Under the pieces are notes generated by a model. That model was not told the DNA's origin and did no database searches. It saw nothing but the letters and a program-made list of their open reading frames with translations. From Fuerstiella marisgermanici (GTDB lineage: Bacteria > Planctomycetota > Planctomycetia > Planctomycetales > Planctomycetaceae), in assembly GCF_001983935.1 (NCBI RefSeq), contig NZ_CP017641.1, forward strand, positions 6,171,001-6,235,000: DNA of 64,000 bases, written 5' to 3'. Of the stretch, positions 546-9,934 are shown piece after piece. The translations under genes were made by a program, and so were the position numbers. Position 1 is the stretch's first letter; every line of letters begins with the position of its first letter.

Positions 546-1832
546 ATGAACGTCACCATGTTTACGAACACGTACCGCCCTCATGTCGGCGGCGTGGCCA
601 ATAGCGTATTCACCTACGAGACGGAATTTCGTGATCGGGGCTTCGACGTCAGCGTAGTGGCACCGGAATTCGAAGGGGCGGAAGAATCCACCGATCACGT
701 GCTGCGTGTGCCGGCGATTCAGAACTTCAATGGCAGCGACTTTTCGCTGCGACTACCGCAGCCATGGGTCGTTTCTGAATTCATTGACCAGGTTCAACCT
801 AACCTGATTCACAGTCACCATCCGTTTCTGCTTGGCGACACTGCATTGCGAACGGCCTACGAACGAGGCCTGCCGCTGGTGTTCACTCATCACACGATGT
901 ACGAACAGTACACACACTATGTGCCGCTGGATTCCGAAGCGATGCAGCGAGTGGCCATCCAAATGGCGACAGAATACTGCAACTTGTGCAACCACGTGAT
1001 CGCGCCCAGCGAGAGCATCGAGGCTCTGCTTCGCAAACGGGGTGTCACCGTGCCGATCACCACCATTCCAACGGGCATCGATCTGGATTTTTTCGGCAGT
1101 GGAGACCGCCAGGCGTTTCGAACGCGGCACGGCATCGACCACGATGCGATCGTCGTCGGGCACGTGGGCCGCCTTGCTGAGGAAAAGAATCTCGCGTTTC
1201 TGGCCGAAGGCGTCGGGCAGTTTCTGTCGCAGAAGTACGACGCTGTGTTTGTTGTCGTAGGCGACGGCAACGACAGGCAGCGGATGGAGGAGGCGCTAAC
1301 AACCCATGTGGGTTCGGACCAATTGGTGTTCACTGGTCGCCAGACCGGACAGGATCTCGCCGACGCCTACGCTTCGATGGATGTGTTTGCCTTCGCGTCG
1401 CAATCCGAAACTCAGGGCATGGTGATTGCCGAAGCATTGGCCGCTGGCAATCCCATCGTGGCTTTGGACGGCCCCGGAATCCGGGAAGTTGTCGAAGAAC
1501 GTAACGGGCGACTGCTGGAGCACGACGCCACCGAAGCAACGTTCGCCGAGGCACTGATGGAACTCACGGCAGAGACGCATCGTCTGAGTCGCATTCGGGA
1601 AGTTGCGAGAGAAACAGCGAAACCCTACGGCCTGAAATGTTGCGCCGATCGGTTGGCCAAGCTGTACGCGGACCTGGTGGCTGAATTCGAAGCCAGCCAT
1701 GACCACGAATTTACTGCATGGGACCAGATGCAGGGACGACTGGAAGCCGAATGGAAATTGCTGGTCGAAAAAGCGTCCGCACTATCTGCTGCGGTAACAG
1801 ACACAGACGCGACACGAGCCGTCATGACGTAG
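546..1832 (+). CDS. GT4 glycosyltransferase, probably lipid glucosyltransferase-like
   Basis: This 428-residue protein has the two-Rossmann GT-B fold expected of family GT4. The N-terminal domain opens with FTNTYRPHVGGVANSVF, containing the GG loop typical of GT4. HSHHPFLLG and FTHHTMYEQYTHY follow, as in alpha-monoglucosyldiacylglycerol synthases. The C-terminal domain has GHVGRLAEEKN and the EX7E-type element SETQGMVIAEALAAG, which holds the donor nucleotide sugar. The tail beyond about residue 375 is extra and probably helical. It starts at ATG 546 and ends 9 bases before the next gene. Family membership is clear; a lipid acceptor is inferred from the motifs and from the membrane phosphodiesterase and VTT genes downstream. 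Confidence 0.88.
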   Translation: MNVTMFTNTYRPHVGGVANSVFTYETEFRDRGFDVSVVAPEFEGAEESTDHVLRVPAIQNFNGSDFSLRLPQPWVVSEFIDQVQPNLIHSHHPFLLGDTALRTAYERGLPLVFTHHTMYEQYTHYVPLDSEAMQRVAIQMATEYCNLCNHVIAPSESIEALLRKRGVTVPITTIPTGIDLDFFGSGDRQAFRTRHGIDHDAIVVGHVGRLAEEKNLAFLAEGVGQFLSQKYDAVFVVVGDGNDRQRMEEALTTHVGSDQLVFTGRQTGQDLADAYASMDVFAFASQSETQGMVIAEALAAGNPIVALDGPGIREVVEERNGRLLEHDATEATFAEALMELTAETHRLSRIREVARETAKPYGLKCCADRLAKLYADLVAEFEASHDHEFTAWDQMQGRLEAEWKLLVEKASALSAAVTDTDATRAVMT

Positions 1833-1841
1833 AACGTTCAC

Positions 1842-4454
1842 ATGCTTACAAAAATTGGAAATTTCAAACGTCGACTCATCAGACGCTTCAGCCGGTCGGA
1901 ACTCATCTCACGATGGACGGGGTTCGAAACAAACGTGCCGCCTTCGCACGAACCCGGCCTGATCGTCCTGCAGGTTGACGGGCTGTCTCGGAAGCAGTTC
2001 GAAGCCGCCGTGGGAAACGGGCGTCTGCCATTTCTGAAGAAGATGATCGACCGCGGCTACTTCGATCGCATGAGCTTCTATTCGGGAGTGCCATCGTGTA
2101 CGCCCGCTGTTCAGGGTGAGGTCATGTATGGCGTGAAAGGGGCCGTGCCGGCGTTCCAGTTTCTGCACCGCGAATCCGGCAAAGTCGTGTGTATGTACGA
2201 GCACGACGCGATCGCGGAAATCGTGAAGGAACGCTTCGCGACTGCTGACCCGCTCCTGAAATCCGGTGCCAGCTTTTCCAACATATATTCCGGCGGCAGT
2301 GAGGAAGCTCGATGCTGCATTGAGACGGCCGACCTGGCGAGCACCTTCAAGGGCATCAATCCGATCCATTTTCTGCTTATGCTGTTGATGTATTCGTTTA
2401 CGTTGCTGCGGATCGGAATCCTGGCGGTAATTGAGGTTCTAGTGGCCGTCGTCGACCTCGTGCGTGGACTGTGGACTCGCAGCGATTGGCGTTCGGAGTT
2501 CAAGTTCGTCCCTGCCCGCGTATTGATTTCCATCGTCCTGCGAGAATGGGTCCGCGTGGTCATGAAACTGTCGATCGCGCGCGGCGTGCCAGTGGTGTAC
2601 GCAAACCTGCTGGGCTATGACGAACAGGCGCACCGTCGAGGCCCCAAAAGCGCGTTCGCTCATTGGGGGCTGAAGGGAATCGACAGAGTCATCAAAGACA
2701 TTTTTCTGACGGCGCGGCGATCTGATCGGCGCGATTACGAAGTGGTCGTGTTCTCAGACCATGGTCAGGAAGACGTCGTCGCATATGAATTCGCGTTTCA
2801 GCAGACGGTGCAGCAGGCCATCACGAAAGCTCTGGAAAGCGGACCTCTGGCCGAACGCCTTGTCCACAACATTGACACAGTTCTTCATCACGGCAGCTAT
2901 ATGGACCAAAACATGCGCCGCCTGCTGAAGATTAAAAAGGGGCGTCGGCCAACAGCAACGCTCACCGCAAAGGAACTGGCCGAAAATGTTGTGGTGACCG
3001 CCATGGGGCCGATCGGACATGTCTATTTTCCGGTGCCTGTAACGGATGACGACAAAGCTGCGGCGGCCAATGTGTTGGTGAATGAGCAGCATGTACCATT
3101 GGTTGTTTACAAGTTGCAAACGGGAGAAATCTTCGGTCGCAATGCTCGCGGTTTGTGGAGTGTCGCGGAAGACTTCGAGGCCGTGGCCGGAAGCCAGCAT
3201 CGATTCGCCCGGGAAGTTCAGGAAGACCTGTTGAGTCTCTGTGATCATCCCGACATCGGCGACCTCATCCTGCTCGGTTGGGATCCCGACAAGCCGCCGA
3301 TTTCGTTCGCTCCGGAAAGCGGTGCTCACGGCAGCATCGGGACCGCAGAAACGCGAGGCTTTGCGCTGCTGCCAGCGATCTGGTCGCTCAAGCCGCGCCG
3401 AACACTCGGCGGCGAAGCATACGTTCGCGGAATCGACCTGCACGCCGCGGGGCTGGCGTTTCTGCGGAGGCAACCGGTGTCAGACGTGATCGTCCGGTCG
3501 GAATCAGACACTCCGGAACACACTCCGGAACACACTCCTGGCGCGCTGCCGAACGCGCAACACCGTGTTGCATCAGCCAAATCGCAGACGTCACCAAAAG
3601 ACTCGCAGCGTCTGCGAATCATGACGTACAACACTCACCATTGCATCGGCATGGATGGAAAGTGTCGCCCGCAGCGAATTGCTCAAGTGATCGCAGCCGC
3701 CAAAGCTGATGTCGTGTGCTTGCAGGAAATGGACGAAAACCGATTACGTTCGAATCACCACGATCAGACCTCAGAAATTGCCGCTGAATTAGGCATGTAT
3801 CACCGCTTCTTTCCGGTGTGGTCGAACGATTCCGAACGCTACGGCCTGGCGATCCTAAGCCGTTTTCCGATTACGTCTGTGCGAGAAGACACGCTGACGG
3901 ATGCCGACCACCGCACCAGACGCGAAGCTCGCGGTGCCATTTGGGTGACTGTCGAAACAGGCGTCGGCCCCATACATGTGATTAACACGCATCTGGGTCT
4001 TCGCACAAAAGAACGTGTGCAGCAGGTTGAAGAACTGCTAAGCGACCGCTGGCTGGCCGACATCGAACAGCACGAACCGGTCCTTCTGTGCGGCGACCTG
4101 AATGCGGGGCCAAAATCGGCTGTCCTGCAGCGTCTTCTCAAACGCTTTCACTGCGCTCAGGTGCTGGCTGACGACCATCGTCCTCAGGCGACCTTCGCGT
4201 CCATCCTGCCGCTGCGACGCATCGACTACATCCTGCTAAGTCGACACATCGTTGTGGAGCACGTCACCGTGCTGAAGAACCACACGACCTCCGTGGCCTC
4301 CGACCACTTGCCTCTGGTTGCCGAAGTGACCGTGCATCATCACACCAGTTCCGCGCGGCACTCCAAGACAGATTTCGAATCGCATCGCAGCCTGCCGCAT
4401 TCGACAGGGCAGGTCGTATCTAACGGCGGTCTGGCCCCCGGCGCGCAGCTATGA
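1842..4454 (+). CDS. Fusion of membrane alkaline-phosphatase-type phosphodiesterase and EEP phosphatase/nuclease domain
   Basis: This 870-residue protein joins two metal-dependent phosphoesterases. Residues about 40-540 are alkaline-phosphatase superfamily (type I phosphodiesterase-like): D46 in LQVDG, a probable Thr nucleophile in PSCTPAVQG (T87), D260 and H264 in GYDEQAH, D306-H307 in SDHGQ and H495 in GAHGS. Two closely spaced hydrophobic segments (about 174-210) are inserted in that domain and should anchor it in a membrane. A linker with the repeat TPEHTPEHTP (558-567) leads to an endonuclease/exonuclease/phosphatase domain (591-830) with E629, H717 in NTHLG, GDLNA (751-755), D795 and SDHLPL (820-825), so all expected catalytic residues are present. 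The stop overlaps the next start (ATGA). Substrate unknown; phospholipid head groups or polyprenyl/glycolipid phosphates are inferred from neighbours. Confidence 0.85.
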   Translation: MLTKIGNFKRRLIRRFSRSELISRWTGFETNVPPSHEPGLIVLQVDGLSRKQFEAAVGNGRLPFLKKMIDRGYFDRMSFYSGVPSCTPAVQGEVMYGVKGAVPAFQFLHRESGKVVCMYEHDAIAEIVKERFATADPLLKSGASFSNIYSGGSEEARCCIETADLASTFKGINPIHFLLMLLMYSFTLLRIGILAVIEVLVAVVDLVRGLWTRSDWRSEFKFVPARVLISIVLREWVRVVMKLSIARGVPVVYANLLGYDEQAHRRGPKSAFAHWGLKGIDRVIKDIFLTARRSDRRDYEVVVFSDHGQEDVVAYEFAFQQTVQQAITKALESGPLAERLVHNIDTVLHHGSYMDQNMRRLLKIKKGRRPTATLTAKELAENVVVTAMGPIGHVYFPVPVTDDDKAAAANVLVNEQHVPLVVYKLQTGEIFGRNARGLWSVAEDFEAVAGSQHRFAREVQEDLLSLCDHPDIGDLILLGWDPDKPPISFAPESGAHGSIGTAETRGFALLPAIWSLKPRRTLGGEAYVRGIDLHAAGLAFLRRQPVSDVIVRSESDTPEHTPEHTPGALPNAQHRVASAKSQTSPKDSQRLRIMTYNTHHCIGMDGKCRPQRIAQVIAAAKADVVCLQEMDENRLRSNHHDQTSEIAAELGMYHRFFPVWSNDSERYGLAILSRFPITSVREDTLTDADHRTRREARGAIWVTVETGVGPIHVINTHLGLRTKERVQQVEELLSDRWLADIEQHEPVLLCGDLNAGPKSAVLQRLLKRFHCAQVLADDHRPQATFASILPLRRIDYILLSRHIVVEHVTVLKNHTTSVASDHLPLVAEVTVHHHTSSARHSKTDFESHRSLPHSTGQVVSNGGLAPGAQL

Positions 4455-5098
4455 CATCGGCAGCAGAAACGAAACCGCTTGCACTGCCCGCGCTGAAGGT
4501 GTTGGTGATCGCGGCTATTGTTGGAGTGCTGCTGCACTTCTATTTGCAGGGCGATTTGACTCAGGACAACCTGAAACGATTCGCCGCTTCGCTGCCTGCA
4601 TGGCTGTTTGTGCCGGCCTATCTCACCCTGCCGTTAGTGGGTTTTCCCATCAGCATCGTGTTGCTGGCGAGTGGCATGAAATTCGGGACGATGACCGCAA
4701 TCATAATCGCCGTTTTCGCGATGGGCTTCCACACGTTTGTCGCATGGCATCTGGCTCATGGGTTCTTCCGTGAGCCCCTGGAACGCTGGCTGGAGAAGAC
4801 TCGATTTAGTCTGCCCCGCATTCCGGAAAAGCACCAGATCTGGTTCACATCCGTCTTCGTAACGGTGCCCGGGCTTCCGTACGCCGTCAAACTGTACTCA
4901 CTGGCGTTAACGGATCTGCCGTTCACTCGCTACCTCTGGATTGTGTGGCTGTTCCACGTCCTGAATGCGATCCCGTTCATCGGCCTCGGATCGGCTGCCG
5001 CCCGGATGAACGTCGGCTGGATGATAGGGTTCGGCCTGCTGGCCGTCGTCATGATCCTGCTCACCAACTGGCTGAAGTCGCGTCTCAGCGACAGTTGA
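4451..5098 (+). CDS. VTT (TVP38/TMEM64/DedA-like) membrane protein
   Basis: The 215-residue product is mostly hydrophobic, with about five to six membrane segments. The LPLVGFPISIVLLASGMKFG stretch and the later FVTVPGLPYAVKLYSLALT stretch match the two re-entrant loop motifs of VTT-domain proteins. Members of this superfamily act as lipid scramblases or undecaprenyl-phosphate/phospholipid translocases. The start ATG overlaps the stop of the phosphodiesterase-EEP gene by four bases, so the two are very likely translationally coupled. Association of VTT proteins with EEP or phospholipase D-like domains is known in other bacteria. The lipid moved here is not known. Confidence 0.8.
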   Translation: MTSAAETKPLALPALKVLVIAAIVGVLLHFYLQGDLTQDNLKRFAASLPAWLFVPAYLTLPLVGFPISIVLLASGMKFGTMTAIIIAVFAMGFHTFVAWHLAHGFFREPLERWLEKTRFSLPRIPEKHQIWFTSVFVTVPGLPYAVKLYSLALTDLPFTRYLWIVWLFHVLNAIPFIGLGSAAARMNVGWMIGFGLLAVVMILLTNWLKSRLSDS

Positions 5099-5197: not shown

Positions 5198-5599
5198 CTA
5201 CTCGAAAATCCTGAAGGCGGGGGCGTTCAGGTGAGGCAGCAGTTTCGGCCCGAACACAATCAAGCCCACGGTCGCGGCGCTCATGGACGCCAGCAGGACC
5301 GCTCCGGCCGCCACGTCCTTGGCTCGACCAGCGAGGTCGTGATGTTGCGGACTGGCGAGATCCACAACAACTTCCACGGCCGTATTAAAAGCTTCGGCCG
5401 ACCACACAAGCCCGATTGACAGCGTCAGCAAACACCACTCCGTCGTGGTCGTTCGCAGCAGGAAGCCGGCCGTGATCACAACAAGCGTCGCCAGCAGATG
5501 GATCCACGCATGGACCTGACTCGCAAACAGAAACCGGATGCCGCGAAAAGCAAACCGAAAGCTGGCGACACGTCGCTGCACGATCGATCTAAGGCCCAT
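5198..5599 (-). CDS. dgkA: Diacylglycerol kinase (DgkA-like, prokaryotic type)
   Basis: The frame could open further upstream (to 5794), but those extra residues overlap the kinase gene and do not look like DgkA. The ATG at 5599 has a GGAAG ribosome site ahead of it and gives 133 residues, close to the usual length of about 120. The protein shows FRFAFRGIRFLFASQVHAWIH followed by three membrane helices, with the family signature around EAFNTAVEVVVDL (Glu/Asn/Thr/Glu of the active site). DgkA or its undecaprenol-kinase relatives phosphorylate membrane diacylglycerol or undecaprenol using ATP. It overlaps the 3' end of the upstream Ser/Thr kinase gene by 11 bases, implying coupled translation. 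Confidence 0.85.
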   Translation of the reverse strand: MGLRSIVQRRVASFRFAFRGIRFLFASQVHAWIHLLATLVVITAGFLLRTTTTEWCLLTLSIGLVWSAEAFNTAVEVVVDLASPQHHDLAGRAKDVAAGAVLLASMSAATVGLIVFGPKLLPHLNAPAFRIFE

Positions 5600-7337
5600 C
5601 TGTCGCTTCCGTTGGTGCATCATCTGTTGACGAAGTGTCGCCGCCGGTCGATTCGACGTCAGGAATTGTGGCCTCCCGGCCCAGAAATCGCTGGCGAGCG
5701 TATTCCGCGAAGTCCTGAAAACGGCCGACGCCCTTGTAATTGTCGTAGACGTATTTCCAGGTTGCGATCGCCTGCTGTTGTTCCGCTTCTTCACCAGTCG
5801 AAAGCTTTTCTGCTTCGGTCATCCGTTCACGAAACATGTGCCGCGCGTCATCAGCTGCGATCAATTTTTGCCGGAAGTAATCGTGATGGTTGCGGCAAAG
5901 CTGCATTAGCCACGGGATTTCTTCTGAAGTGTCCGACAAACTTTCTCCCTGCTCAATCAGTGCCTGCCATCGCTGCAAGGCGGGCAACGGATTGGAAGGC
6001 AACTCGGTGGCCGGTGGATCTTCCCACGTCGGAACATAGACCAGGCCTTCTTCGTCTTCCAGGCGAGCAGCTTCGACGCAGGCGGCCTTGAAGGGCGGTT
6101 CCACCGGTTTGTTAATGCGCGCCAGATTCTTGAGCTGCGGTTCCAGCATGTTGGCATGCAACTTTGCGGAGAGTTCTCGTGCTCGGGCGATATGCTGACC
6201 AGCCGGAAACTTTTCGATGTAAGGATCGATGTGCTTATCCAGCGATGCGCGCTGAGCATACTCGTCGCCCTGCATGGCTTCGTGCCATTGTTCGGCGTAC
6301 CAGTCTTCGCCCGGCGGACGCAGCAACCATGCGGTTGCACCGACCAGTGCGAGCAGACACGTCGCCAGAAACCACGTTTGTTCGTGGATCGGCCCCTTCT
6401 TTTTTCGTTTCTTCTTTTTCTTTTTGCGTGCGCCGACAGACTTCGGCTTGCCGGTTCCGGAACCGACCGCGCTGCCCGACACGACGGTGTCCGCCAGCGC
6501 CGCTCCGACCCCGGAGTCCGCTCGTTCTTTGATCTCGCCCAGATCCGTATGAACGGCCAACGCGTCATATGGTCGATCGTCGGGCTTCTTTTCCAACAGT
6601 CGATCGATCAGCTTGCCAAGTTCGATCGGGCAGTTGGGAACCTTTTCGCAGACGTTGTACGGCTCATCCTGAAGATGCTGCATCAGCATGTCCATCGGAT
6701 TGTCAGAATGAAACGGTGTCTCGCCGACAACCAGTTCGTACAGCACACATCCCAGGGCGTACAAATCTGTTTTGCGCGAGATCGGGTCGCTGGCCTGGAT
6801 TTGTTCCGGCGCCATGTAGGCGTACGTTCCAACGGTTTTGCCGGCGGCCGTCAGCGCGGTGGCTTCGGTGTCTCGAGCGATGCCGAAGTCGCCCAGCTTT
6901 AGATGGCCTTTACGAGAAAGGAACAAATTCGCTGGCTTCAAATCGCGATGAATGATGCCCGCGTTGTGAGCGTGTTCCAAAGCCGACGTGACCTGTCGCC
7001 CAACATGGATGACCTGTTCCCACGTGAGCTGGCCGCGGTTCTTGATCACCTGCTGCAGCGAGCCCCCGTCGATGAATTCCATCGCGTAGTAACGCTGCCC
7101 GTTCTCCGTGCCGCCACCGTAGTACTTCACGATGTTGGGGTGCTTCAGCCGCTTCAGAATGCCGATCTCGCGTTCGAACCGCTTGCGTACCTTCGCGTCA
7201 CTCATGAAGCCGGGCGACAGCACTTTCACGGCCACCTTTTTCCCGGTTTTCGGGTAGATGGCAGAATAAACAACGCCCATTCCCCCCACGCCGATCTGGC
7301 GGTCCAGTTGAAACGGGCCTATCGTGCGGGGAGCCAT
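5589..7337 (-). CDS. Membrane-anchored Ser/Thr protein kinase (Hanks type)
   Basis: This 582-residue protein has a complete kinase domain at residues about 7-270: glycine loop GVGGMGVVY (16-24), catalytic K38, HRDLKPAN (130-137), DFG (150-152) and the APEQ element at about 176. A low-complexity linker with a poly-Lys/Arg tract (305-314) precedes one membrane helix (about 321-339), and about 240 residues lie beyond it, presumably outside the cytoplasm. The extra-membrane part has no family I recognise. It overlaps dgkA at its end and is divergent from the FHA gene, separated by 433 bases. The poly-Lys tract is a homopolymer-rich site, but the frame stays open through it. Confidence 0.92.
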   Translation of the reverse strand: MAPRTIGPFQLDRQIGVGGMGVVYSAIYPKTGKKVAVKVLSPGFMSDAKVRKRFEREIGILKRLKHPNIVKYYGGGTENGQRYYAMEFIDGGSLQQVIKNRGQLTWEQVIHVGRQVTSALEHAHNAGIIHRDLKPANLFLSRKGHLKLGDFGIARDTEATALTAAGKTVGTYAYMAPEQIQASDPISRKTDLYALGCVLYELVVGETPFHSDNPMDMLMQHLQDEPYNVCEKVPNCPIELGKLIDRLLEKKPDDRPYDALAVHTDLGEIKERADSGVGAALADTVVSGSAVGSGTGKPKSVGARKKKKKKRKKKGPIHEQTWFLATCLLALVGATAWLLRPPGEDWYAEQWHEAMQGDEYAQRASLDKHIDPYIEKFPAGQHIARARELSAKLHANMLEPQLKNLARINKPVEPPFKAACVEAARLEDEEGLVYVPTWEDPPATELPSNPLPALQRWQALIEQGESLSDTSEEIPWLMQLCRNHHDYFRQKLIAADDARHMFRERMTEAEKLSTGEEAEQQQAIATWKYVYDNYKGVGRFQDFAEYARQRFLGREATIPDVESTGGDTSSTDDAPTEATDGP

Positions 7338-7770: not shown

Positions 7771-8199
7771 ATGCTGGCCCAGCTAATCCCAGTCAAGAAC
7801 GGTCCTCGGATCACTCTGACCAAGCCGATCACGGTGGTGGGTCGCAGTGCGCGGCTGTGCGATCTGGCGGTGGATCACAACGCCGTTTCCAAGATACATT
7901 GCGTGCTGGTCAAAACAGACGGCCTGATCTATTTGCGAGATCTCGGCAGCACCAACGGGACTCGCGTGAACGGCCAGCGAGTCATCCGGGGTGCGTTGTT
8001 GCCTGGCGACCAGATTTCGTTTGGCGGAGCAGGCTACACGGTGTATCTGGGGCCCGATCCTCAGCTTTCGGCGGGCGGCCAGTCGTCAGCCGAACTGACC
8101 GAGATGATTCCGATCATCACCGACAGCGACCCGGACTTAAGCGTTTCCAAAAGCGACGTTCAGTTGCTGTCTGATTCTGACTTTCTGCCCGCCGACTAA
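7771..8199 (+). CDS. FHA-domain protein
   Basis: The 142-residue product is essentially one forkhead-associated domain (about residues 10-95) with the hallmark GRS near residue 24, VSKIHC (the Ser and His that contact phosphothreonine) and LGSTNGTRVNG. FHA domains bind phosphothreonine peptides, so this is a likely reader of the kinases encoded on either side. The last about 45 residues are acidic and Ser-rich and probably disordered. Its stop overlaps the stop of the convergent kinase gene by three bases. No membrane segment or output domain is present. Confidence 0.88.
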   Translation: MLAQLIPVKNGPRITLTKPITVVGRSARLCDLAVDHNAVSKIHCVLVKTDGLIYLRDLGSTNGTRVNGQRVIRGALLPGDQISFGGAGYTVYLGPDPQLSAGGQSSAELTEMIPIITDSDPDLSVSKSDVQLLSDSDFLPAD

Positions 8200-9653
8200 C
8201 TCAGCATCTCTCTGACTTTTTCTCCCAGTGTTTGCCACAGCCCCTGGCCGAGAAAAATGACCAGCGCGGCGATGACGCCAACAAGTGCCAGCCAGAGCAT
8301 CAACATGATGCCACCCCCTAAGTTGCGAAGCTTGTTCCGAGCCCACCGCCAGCGAACTCGTTTCTTCTCGTCGCGTTCCACCTGCTTGTACAGGCTTTTC
8401 ATATCCGTTTTTTGTATCTGAGCCGTGTGGCGGCTAAGGCTGGCTTCGATGGCGTCCCTGAATTCAGGGAATTGAGCCAGTGGAAGGTACGAACCATCGG
8501 CCGAGGCTTTGCAGCGTGCTTTGGCCGTGACTGTGCCCGCCTTGATCATCTTCAGGATGCGACCGGTCGAATGCTTCTCCACGACCGTTTTCTTCTTCTC
8601 ATCCACATACTGCACGTACCACGTTCGCGACGCTGCCTTCTTAGCCGACTTCTTCGCATCGACTCGTGAAGAAACCTCGCCCGAGCGAGCCGCCGCGGTC
8701 ATCGTGCTTCCTAACCCGGCAACCGTTGGCGACACCGAACGTCCCACGCCCGTTGGCACGGCCCCCTCGACAAAAGACAACGCTTCGCTGTGTACTCCCA
8801 GGGCGTTTAGATCCCTGATGATCTCCGCACAGTCGCCGTAACGGTGCTTGGGATCTTTGGCCATCATCTTGTCGATGATCAGATCCAACCGCTCAGGGAT
8901 CTCCGGGCAGATCTTCCTGGCCGCTTCGTACTTGCCGATTTCCTTAGCTTTGATTAGTTCCACAACGTTAGCACCGGTGAAGGGCAGTTTTCCGGTGAGC
9001 AAATGGTACAGCGTGGCACCCAAGGCGTAGATGTCACAACGAAGGTCGACGGTCTTGGCGCTATGAGCCTGTTCGGGGGGCATGTACAGGGGTGTGCCGA
9101 GCCCCGCGTTGGTCTGCGTCATCGAAACGTCATCGTCCAGCACTTTGGCCAGGCCGAAGTCAGCGACCTTCACGACGCCTTTGCTGGTCAGCAGAATGTT
9201 GTCCGGTTTGATATCGCGATGCACCATGTTTTGATCATGAGCATGCTTCAACGCTTCCGCACAGACCATCGCGATATGAACGGCGTCGCCGACGGAGAAC
9301 TTTTTCAGCTTGTTCAGCCAGTCCTGCACGCTCTTGCCATTGATGTATTCAATGGCTGCAAAGTGAACACCTTTGTAAGAATCGACGGCATAAACTTTGA
9401 CCACATTCGTGTGATCCAGTTTGGCCATCGAACGCGCTTCGCGTAAGAAACGGCCCACGAAGTCCTCGTTCTTCGCGAGATTTTTGGAAAGCGTTTTTAG
9501 TGCGACAAGGCGATCAAGACTGATCTGCCGCGCCAGAAACACTTCACCCATGCCGCCTTTGCCGAGCCTCTTTTTGAGCTCGAAATCGCCGATCTTTGTA
9601 ACCGTCTTCTTCTGACTTCCCGCTGGCGTTTTCTTTTCGTTTTTGTCCGACAC
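8196..9653 (-). CDS. Membrane-anchored Ser/Thr protein kinase with GYF_2-like segment
   Basis: I place the start at GTG 9653, which has AGAAGGGA six bases upstream; the frame is open to 9755 without better support. The resulting 485-residue protein has a kinase domain with GKGGMGEVF, ALKTL (catalytic Lys), HRDIKPDN and DFGLAK, then a Ser/Thr/Ala-rich linker. After that comes a segment beginning TWYVQYVDEKK and ending in YLPLAQFPEF, which resembles the GYF_2 fold common in planctomycete proteins. One membrane helix lies close to the C-terminus, leaving only a short tail outside, so signals may be sensed on the cytoplasmic side. Convergent with the FHA gene. Confidence 0.9.
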   Translation of the reverse strand: MSDKNEKKTPAGSQKKTVTKIGDFELKKRLGKGGMGEVFLARQISLDRLVALKTLSKNLAKNEDFVGRFLREARSMAKLDHTNVVKVYAVDSYKGVHFAAIEYINGKSVQDWLNKLKKFSVGDAVHIAMVCAEALKHAHDQNMVHRDIKPDNILLTSKGVVKVADFGLAKVLDDDVSMTQTNAGLGTPLYMPPEQAHSAKTVDLRCDIYALGATLYHLLTGKLPFTGANVVELIKAKEIGKYEAARKICPEIPERLDLIIDKMMAKDPKHRYGDCAEIIRDLNALGVHSEALSFVEGAVPTGVGRSVSPTVAGLGSTMTAAARSGEVSSRVDAKKSAKKAASRTWYVQYVDEKKKTVVEKHSTGRILKMIKAGTVTAKARCKASADGSYLPLAQFPEFRDAIEASLSRHTAQIQKTDMKSLYKQVERDEKKRVRWRWARNKLRNLGGGIMLMLWLALVGVIAALVIFLGQGLWQTLGEKVREMLS

Positions 9654-9934
9654 GTTGTTCCCTTCTGGCGGAAACCTGTCTTCAGCGATCAGCATCTCAC
9701 TGGCGTGATGTCTGAGAACGCCGGTCAAACCCGCGTGAGGTGTTGCCACGGGCACGTCACACTCTACGCATTACGGCAACGAAACGATTGCCAGCGATCC
9801 GCTTTTGCCGACATTCGTACCGATAACTCTATCTTCGACAACGAGGCGAGGGCGATAACGGATTGCCGGAATTCGCTGGATATCGCTGTCTATAGACGTC
9901 AATTTCCCCAAATTCGTGACAAACGGCGACGGAA

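Follow-up and report, generated by a model that had tools for sequence, protein, structure and literature searches.

The alkaline-phosphatase (AP) superfamily includes phosphoethanolamine and phosphoglycerol transferases as well as the NPP family; to our knowledge, the known NPPs and the known phospho-group transferases of AP type all act outside the cytoplasm. Within the EEP superfamily, PGAP2IP/Cwh43 works in glycosylphosphatidylinositol (GPI)-lipid remodelling, and YbhP belongs to the same superfamily. PlcP is a calcineurin-type phosphoesterase next to a glycosyltransferase, and Agt is a glycosyltransferase of GT4 type. The ybhP gene lies in a ybhP-clsB-ybhN operon (PMC9241728), an EEP phosphodiesterase is specific for N-acetylglucosamine (GlcNAc)-6-phosphocholine and GlcNAc-6-phosphoethanolamine (PMC10704324), Agt makes glycolipids of phosphate-limited Desulfovibrio (PMC5193443), and a DedA protein is reported as an undecaprenyl-phosphate flippase (PMC12893004). 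The locus considered here brings proteins of such kinds together in a single gene run. It lies at one end of a 64,000-nucleotide stretch (hereafter the window) of the closed, 8.92-Mb genome of the planctomycete Fuerstiella marisgermanici (NZ_CP017641.1, positions 6,171,001 to 6,235,000) and consists of four genes, all on the forward strand: a gene here called X, a GT4 glycosyltransferase gene, a gene for a double phosphoesterase that joins an NPP-type AP domain to an EEP domain (AP+EEP), and a gene for a VTT-domain membrane protein. Its components belong to known kinds, but the unit as such, and X, appear to be new. No description of this gene combination was found in the open-access literature, in agreement with the original prediction, made from the letters of the DNA, which knew of no described system with this fusion. 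With a probability of about one half, these genes form a conserved membrane-associated module that edits a lipid or a lipid-linked sugar-phosphate on the cytoplasmic face of the membrane.

Two phosphoesterase folds in one chain, and its partner genes

The AP+EEP gene (1842–4454; delimited by its open reading frame, Pfam, the structural model and synteny) encodes 870 residues, and the open reading frame, the Pfam matches and the structure matches all bear out the predicted fusion of two phosphoesterase folds. Phosphodiest (PF01663) is matched at E 2.6e-10 (40.8 bits, gathering score 23) and Exo_endo_phos (PF03372) at E 1.2e-26 (94.3 bits, gathering score 24.5); Exo_endo_phos_PGAP2IP also matches the EEP domain above its gathering score (E 1.6e-13). 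In the predicted structure (mean local confidence, pLDDT, 87; predicted template-modelling score, pTM, 0.88), solved NPPs align with residues 36–551 at Z about 23 and EEP enzymes with residues 588–834 at Z up to 31 (31.0 with 4ruw). The matches to the AP fold include NPP6 and NPP7, listed as a choline-specific glycerophosphodiesterase and an alkaline sphingomyelinase; those to the EEP fold include human neutral sphingomyelinase (Z 25.2) and, as a close match, the mannosyl-6-phosphatase Bt3783 (Z 27.1).

Both active sites are complete, as had been proposed, and they are invariant or nearly so among 63 aligned proteins. In the NPP-type domain (residues 37–551, positions 1950–3494, delimited by alignment to solved NPPs), D46, T87, H264, D306, H307 and H496 are present in all 63 and D260 in 61; in the EEP domain (residues 588–834, positions 3603–4343, delimited by Pfam, fold and residues), N597, H599, E629, H717, D752, N754 and D795 are present in all 63, and D821 and H822 are kept in 62, with one gap. 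The catalytic roles are assigned by family motif, the NPP residues as a two-metal site with a Thr/Ser nucleophile. The AP domain is also interrupted. Between its nucleophile and its second metal-binding motif, the model places a helical hairpin (residues 185–246, positions 2394–2579) made of helices 185–213 and 216–246, one arm of which is strongly hydrophobic: the 19-residue mean hydropathy peaks at 2.47 over residues 174–212, where membrane helices inserted in the first domain had been expected. All 63 aligned proteins share three charged residues within this hairpin, R190, E198 and E219.

Open reading frames and Pfam place the flanking genes where the original prediction had them. Upstream, the GT4 gene (546–1832, 428 residues) matches Glyco_transf_4 and Glycos_transf_1 above the gathering score and has the E-x7-E donor motif: R209, K214 and E288 are found in 49 of 50 members and E296 in all 50. 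Its best NCBIfam profile, aligned over nearly the full length and matched by every one of the 50 members, is alpha-monoglucosyldiacylglycerol synthase (NF049988). Downstream, the start codon of the VTT gene (4451–5098, 215 residues) overlaps the AP+EEP stop by 4 bases (4451 versus 4454); its product matches VTT_dom (PF09335) at E 1.7e-10, with 41.9 bits against a gathering score of 33.9, and is one of six VTT proteins found in the genome.

The gene unit as first drawn held the GT4, AP+EEP and VTT genes and missed X, as the start of X lies outside the window. A search of the window's genome with an X relative found X directly upstream of GT4, so that the run begins 5' of the window and only the 3' end of X falls inside it (1–492). 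The open reading frame extends from a GTG at G000:C1:6169075 to 6171492 (end of the stop codon); a methionine at G000:C1:6169111 is the likelier start and gives 793 residues. The genome has one copy, and relatives of the module carry a protein of about 750 residues before GT4 in many loci. What kind of protein is X? A Pfam scan of 47 members gave nothing better than E 0.003; the GH15 profile (PF00723) matched one of the 47 at E 0.063 and left the rest without a match at E 0.1, and no NCBIfam match came near a cutoff in the two members scanned. Having no family in these two profile libraries, X appears to be a new one. A model of the Lacipirellula homologue (L037; pLDDT 85) resembles (alpha/alpha)6 glycoside hydrolases and phosphorylases: structural alignment gives dextran dextrinase 9ju0 (Z 32.4), the bacterial glucoamylase 1lf6 (Z 31.1; root-mean-square deviation 3.0 over 523 aligned residues) and glucodextranase 1ug9 (Z 30.4), and Foldseek ranks GH94 phosphorylases at the top. 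The model contains both the (alpha/alpha)6 barrel and an N-terminal beta-sandwich, a combination common to GH15, GH65 and GH94 that therefore does not single out GH15, and identity to the fold matches is about 7–16%. Acidic residues strictly conserved in X include E433, D505 and E656 (47 of 47); these may be catalytic, and X may be a hydrolase. Neither the X nor the GT4 protein of the window has a hydrophobic segment above threshold.

Recurrence and fusion across phylum-level groups

A profile of the AP part retrieved 229 loci from a species-level genome collection. The counts that follow are for the best-scoring 80, a selection biased towards close relatives of the window protein; many of the records are metagenome bins, their phylum labels come from record titles, and the gene calls are our own. 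A single-sequence search of genome contigs with the whole protein found no relative, and a three-row AP alignment was required to find the loci. Had homologues turned out to be separate genes without these neighbours, the original prediction would have been in difficulty; the opposite was found. AP and EEP are fused in 74 of the 80 loci, and GT4 lies directly upstream of AP+EEP in 62 of the 70 that have room for it and no triple fusion. Where there is room for X, 56 of 66 loci have it; a VTT gene occurs in 46 of 80 overall (39 of 53 where there is room on both sides), and all four occur together in 35 of 80. The VTT gene is unevenly distributed: it occurs in 22 of 28 Gamma- or Betaproteobacterial, 12 of 20 verrucomicrobial and 7 of 10 Desulfobacterota-like loci.

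The fusion extends over eleven phylum-level groups (Planctomycetota, Verrucomicrobiota, Desulfobacterota-like, Proteobacteria, Nitrospira, Nitrospinae, Omnitrophota, Lentisphaerae, BRC1, Hydrogenedentota and Chloroflexi). In nine of these, GT4 adjoins AP+EEP or is fused to it, the short Chloroflexi contig not being among them, and five groups show all four genes with GT4 directly upstream; the Nitrospinae locus (L100) has every partner in a different order. The order X-GT4-AP/EEP-VTT is found in the window, in L035 and in several verrucomicrobia, and VTT-X-GT4-AP/EEP in many gammaproteobacteria. Cultured hosts, Rheinheimera pacifica (L075) and Lacipirellula limnantheis I41 (L037), carry the X-GT4-AP/EEP run, which means that a lipid or glycan product can be sought directly. 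Six loci are unfused: AP and EEP are adjacent in L055; EEP is about 1.5 and 4.4 kb away in L060 and L087; AP has no EEP found with it in L063; AP is followed by VTT and the contig end in L069; and the contig ends in L095.

Could these associations be accidental, with AP+EEP acting as a general phosphatase or nuclease amid unrelated genes? The fusion is absent from the seven congeners of the window searched, which match in the EEP part alone, and in three loci (L047, L097 and L101) AP+EEP has neither GT4 nor X in reach. A chance neighbourhood is nonetheless highly improbable, being contradicted by the recurrence of partners in the 80 loci and by the triple fusions described below: the same partners return in nine phylum-level groups, fused to each other. 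An artefactual join of the two halves was likewise rejected, since the 74 fused loci come from different records, though about a dozen of them are Rheinheimera and close relatives.

The distribution close to the window is sparse. A search of 57 other close relatives gave two in which the AP part occurs with EEP (L005 and L006) and a third with a short, weak AP match. This rarity suggests transfer or repeated loss, and the absence of the AP part from the seven congeners makes a recent gain of the module possible. At E 1e-5, the AP part had no match in either the plasmid or the phage collection. Matches to the whole 870-residue protein occur in 334 plasmid records, and in the 20 of these inspected they are to its C-terminal part; in both Rhizobium plasmids inspected out of the 334, standalone EEP relatives (about 41% identity) adjoin genes for phospholipase-D-like and lysylphosphatidylglycerol-synthase-domain proteins. 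X has weak matches of 23–25% identity in three plasmids, to proteins annotated as discoidin-domain proteins.

Other neighbours were weighed as partners and set aside. A neighbour cluster spanning 19 loci proved heterogeneous, joined only loosely by single linkage: several of its proteins resemble sensor kinases and response regulators by eye, and places and strands change from locus to locus; the next clusters (9–11 loci) reflect shared gene order among Rheinheimera, Arsukibacterium and one related bin, and the remainder span 2–4 loci. In the window, a prokaryotic diacylglycerol kinase gene (5198–5794, reverse strand; PF01219, E 8.6e-34) fits the theme and was rejected as a fifth part: it is convergent with the module, and no gene called in the 80 loci is related to it. 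Also 3' of the module are a protein kinase gene and a small FHA-domain gene (both by Pfam) and a second kinase-like reading frame (by eye), at 5589–7337 (reverse), 7771–8199 (forward) and 8196–9755 (reverse). Scans for Rfam families and tRNAs found nothing in the window. At L145, a reading frame resembling a Mutator-type transposase by eye (3128–4480) lies about 4.6 kb upstream of gene X, and at L163 an X-GT4 pair is near a gene of NADH-quinone oxidoreductase type.

Membrane side, substrate and competing explanations

On which side of the membrane do the two phosphoesterases work? In five loci (L005, L067, L071, L098 and L106), GT4, AP and EEP form one open frame of 1237–1292 codons, and Pfam confirms the triple fusion in both chains scanned. 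L005 comes from the window's family and the other four are titled Omnitrophota; L106 runs to the contig end, and L115, which has lost most of GT4 at a contig end, is otherwise of the triple-chain type. Between their domains, these chains show no hydrophobic segment above threshold: the segments sit in the AP insert, and in three chains the GT4 part has a weak stretch of its own. Nucleotide sugars are the donors of GT4 enzymes; together with the lack of a segment between the domains, this would place AP and EEP on the cytoplasmic face, barring an undetected crossing. Both phosphoesterases thus probably face the cytoplasm, an unusual location for an NPP-type enzyme, and the module suggests that such an enzyme can work inside the cell. 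The presence of the glycosyltransferase, NPP and EEP domains in one chain is also a direct hint that the three chemistries share one substrate.

The same topology bears on a scheme in which the module would synthesize or turn over a phospho-oligosaccharide linked to undecaprenol or diacylglycerol, teichoic-acid-like or GPI-like, with AP as a phospho-group transferase. Transferases of this kind exist in the AP superfamily, the PGAP2IP family matches the EEP domain, and a DedA protein is reported to flip undecaprenyl phosphate (PMC12893004). The triple fusions would, however, put AP inside, unlike the known transferases, and by its Pfam matches the window's module includes neither a polymerase nor an export gene. 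We regard this scheme as improbable, the weakest of the three lipid or sugar alternatives considered here.

A lipid or lipid-linked substrate is favoured in view of the hairpin, the VTT partner and the joining of GT4 to the phosphoesterases, along with the best profile of GT4, the PGAP2IP match, the fold matches to NPP6, NPP7 and neutral sphingomyelinase, and the neighbours of the EEP relatives on the Rhizobium plasmids. At roughly even odds, the module represents an undescribed, patchily distributed and probably transferred pathway in about ten phylum-level groups, in which a membrane-anchored NPP+EEP protein on the cytoplasmic face shares a lipid-linked substrate with GT4, sometimes in one chain, and with an enzyme of a new, glycoside-hydrolase-like family, to make or recycle a glycolipid or a lipid-linked phosphosugar. 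In such a pathway, a cationic N-terminal helix and the hydrophobic hairpin of AP would hold the three catalytic domains of the triple chain at the cytoplasmic side of the membrane. AP (NPP-type, with a Thr nucleophile) and EEP (acid-base, Mg-type) would each cleave a different phosphate bond of the same substrate: for example, (i) a phosphate-containing head group could be released, and (ii) the remaining phosphate then removed to leave an acceptor such as diacylglycerol. GT4 would add an alpha-hexose to this product or to a related acceptor, X might trim or hydrolyse glycosyl units of the product or of a misfed substrate, and the VTT protein could move the finished or spent lipid between leaflets. 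Head-group removal and flipping, both put forward in the original prediction, keep the standing of proposals.

Is the module simply a phosphate-starvation device? AP+EEP would then serve as a phospholipase C that yields diacylglycerol, from which GT4 makes a substitute glycolipid, much as in PlcP/Agt. The glycolipids that Agt makes in phosphate-limited Desulfovibrio (PMC5193443) set a precedent, and the nearest profile of GT4 is a diacylglycerol glucosyltransferase; Pho-box-like scores of at least 11 of 14 occur upstream of 4 of 66 modules (6%), all four gammaproteobacterial, against 3% of 523 other genes. The mean best score is nevertheless equal in modules and other genes (9.12 versus 9.01 of 14) in what is a weak test, with a consensus pooled over phyla, and X has no role in the scheme. 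The starvation version is accordingly less likely than the cytoplasmic-face editing module proposed above, and we consider it unlikely.

Several observations weigh against a lipid-editing module. First, the associations are incomplete: beside the three loci in which AP+EEP stands without GT4 and X, L188 has GT4-AP-EEP but no X, L163 and L164 (family f49) have X-GT4 but no AP+EEP, and L183 has X-GT4 with VTT, again lacking AP+EEP. The VTT neighbour, correctly called at the window, proved to be a less constant partner, present in just one of six planctomycete and none of five Omnitrophota loci. Second, the profiles leave the acceptor of GT4 ambiguous: the likeness to diacylglycerol glucosyltransferases stands insofar as NF049988 is the best profile, and falls short in that the window GT4 scores 150.9 bits where the curated cutoff is 400; TIGR04063 is likewise matched by 50 of 50 members, and profile comparison also puts GT4 near MshA and BshA, which use soluble acceptors. 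In L005 (268–4017, reverse strand), three donor-site residues of the GT4 half, R209, K214 and E288, are changed, and this half may for that reason be inactive, perhaps structural. Third, TDP2, nocturnin and CNOT6L, which are nucleases or deadenylases, match the EEP domain at Z about 24–25, and the NCBIfam profile that it matches best is that of exodeoxyribonuclease III (51.8 bits, under the cutoff of 99); the EEP fold therefore gives no pointer to lipids. Membrane segments, moreover, were called from hydropathy alone.

The statistics of association are subject to similar cautions. Of 391 planctomycete genomes, 8 have a strong hit to X, 6 to AP+EEP and 3 to both (hypergeometric p 1.1e-4), and among 228 genomes of Rheinheimera's class the counts are 7, 4 and 3 (p 7.1e-5), with p-values that ignore relatedness and a line between strong and weak that was drawn after the hits were seen. 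The genomes were drawn evenly, and neither set includes the query genome. The planctomycete counts omit the AP hits G371, G429 and G199 (E 1e-48 to 1e-55; the reading frames in L121–L123 have no EEP match), 19 genomes with AP weaker than 1e-6 and 12 with weak partial X; the gammaproteobacterial counts omit 6 genomes in which X gave a weak, partial hit. In two of the three double-positive planctomycete genomes, both of one genus, X and AP+EEP are far apart on the chromosome, and the link is therefore more than adjacency. Pairwise distances are also correlated among the four proteins (r 0.84–0.96, against at most 0.25 in permutations), in a comparison made without a control gene.

Carbohydrate neighbours may point away from lipids in two loci. 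X-GT4 stands beside trehalose-phosphate synthase/phosphatase and GH15 genes in L169 (1762–7058), and a glucan phosphorylase gene is near the module in L087, which could mean that soluble alpha-glucans are involved. X would then be an exo-glycosidase or phosphorylase, GT4 would make a soluble glycoside (glycogen- or trehalose-like, or of glucosylglycerol type), and AP+EEP would dephosphorylate sugar phosphates or phosphodiesters in alpha-glucan or compatible-solute metabolism. The likeness of X to glucoamylase, glucodextranase, GH65 and GH94 structures agrees with this account, as do the sugar-specific phosphodiesterase of the EEP superfamily (PMC10704324) and the fold match to Bt3783. Each carbohydrate neighbour, however, comes from one locus, and the membrane hairpin, the VTT partner of more than half of the loci and a GT4 resembling a diacylglycerol enzyme are left unexplained. 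We hold it to be about as doubtful as the starvation scheme, and continue to prefer editing of a lipid or lipid-linked sugar-phosphate at the cytoplasmic face. If confirmed, this would add to bacteria a lipid- or glycan-editing route whose genes seem unrelated when annotated singly.

Comparison with known systems

How, then, does the module relate to systems already described? With the NPP family (Xac NPP, NPP6 and NPP7), its AP domain shares the fold and the full set of metal ligands and nucleophile; unlike them, it has an inserted hairpin, is fused to an EEP domain and probably faces the cytoplasm. With other members of the EEP superfamily (neutral sphingomyelinase, the C-terminal domain of PGAP2IP/Cwh43 and YbhP-type proteins), the second half has the fold, the catalytic residues and the PGAP2IP Pfam match in common, but here the EEP domain is fused behind an NPP domain, and the window's module has no phospholipase D gene. 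The EEP relatives on Rhizobium plasmids, beside phospholipase-D-like and flippase-like genes, come closer to the ybhP-clsB-ybhN arrangement (PMC9241728).

The remaining comparisons concern the partners. X shares its predicted fold and invariant acidic residues with GH15, GH65 and GH94 and differs from them in its absent Pfam match and low identity, and alpha-monoglucosyldiacylglycerol synthase offers the best profile for GT4, yet one whose cutoff lies far above the score reached (150.9 versus 400 bits). PlcP/Agt phosphate-limitation remodelling has the same logic, a phosphodiesterase paired with a glycosyltransferase. The module departs from it in its phosphoesterase folds, Pfam finding no calcineurin-type PlcP domain in the window's module, in its additional glycoside-hydrolase-like and VTT proteins, and in showing no clear Pho-box signal.

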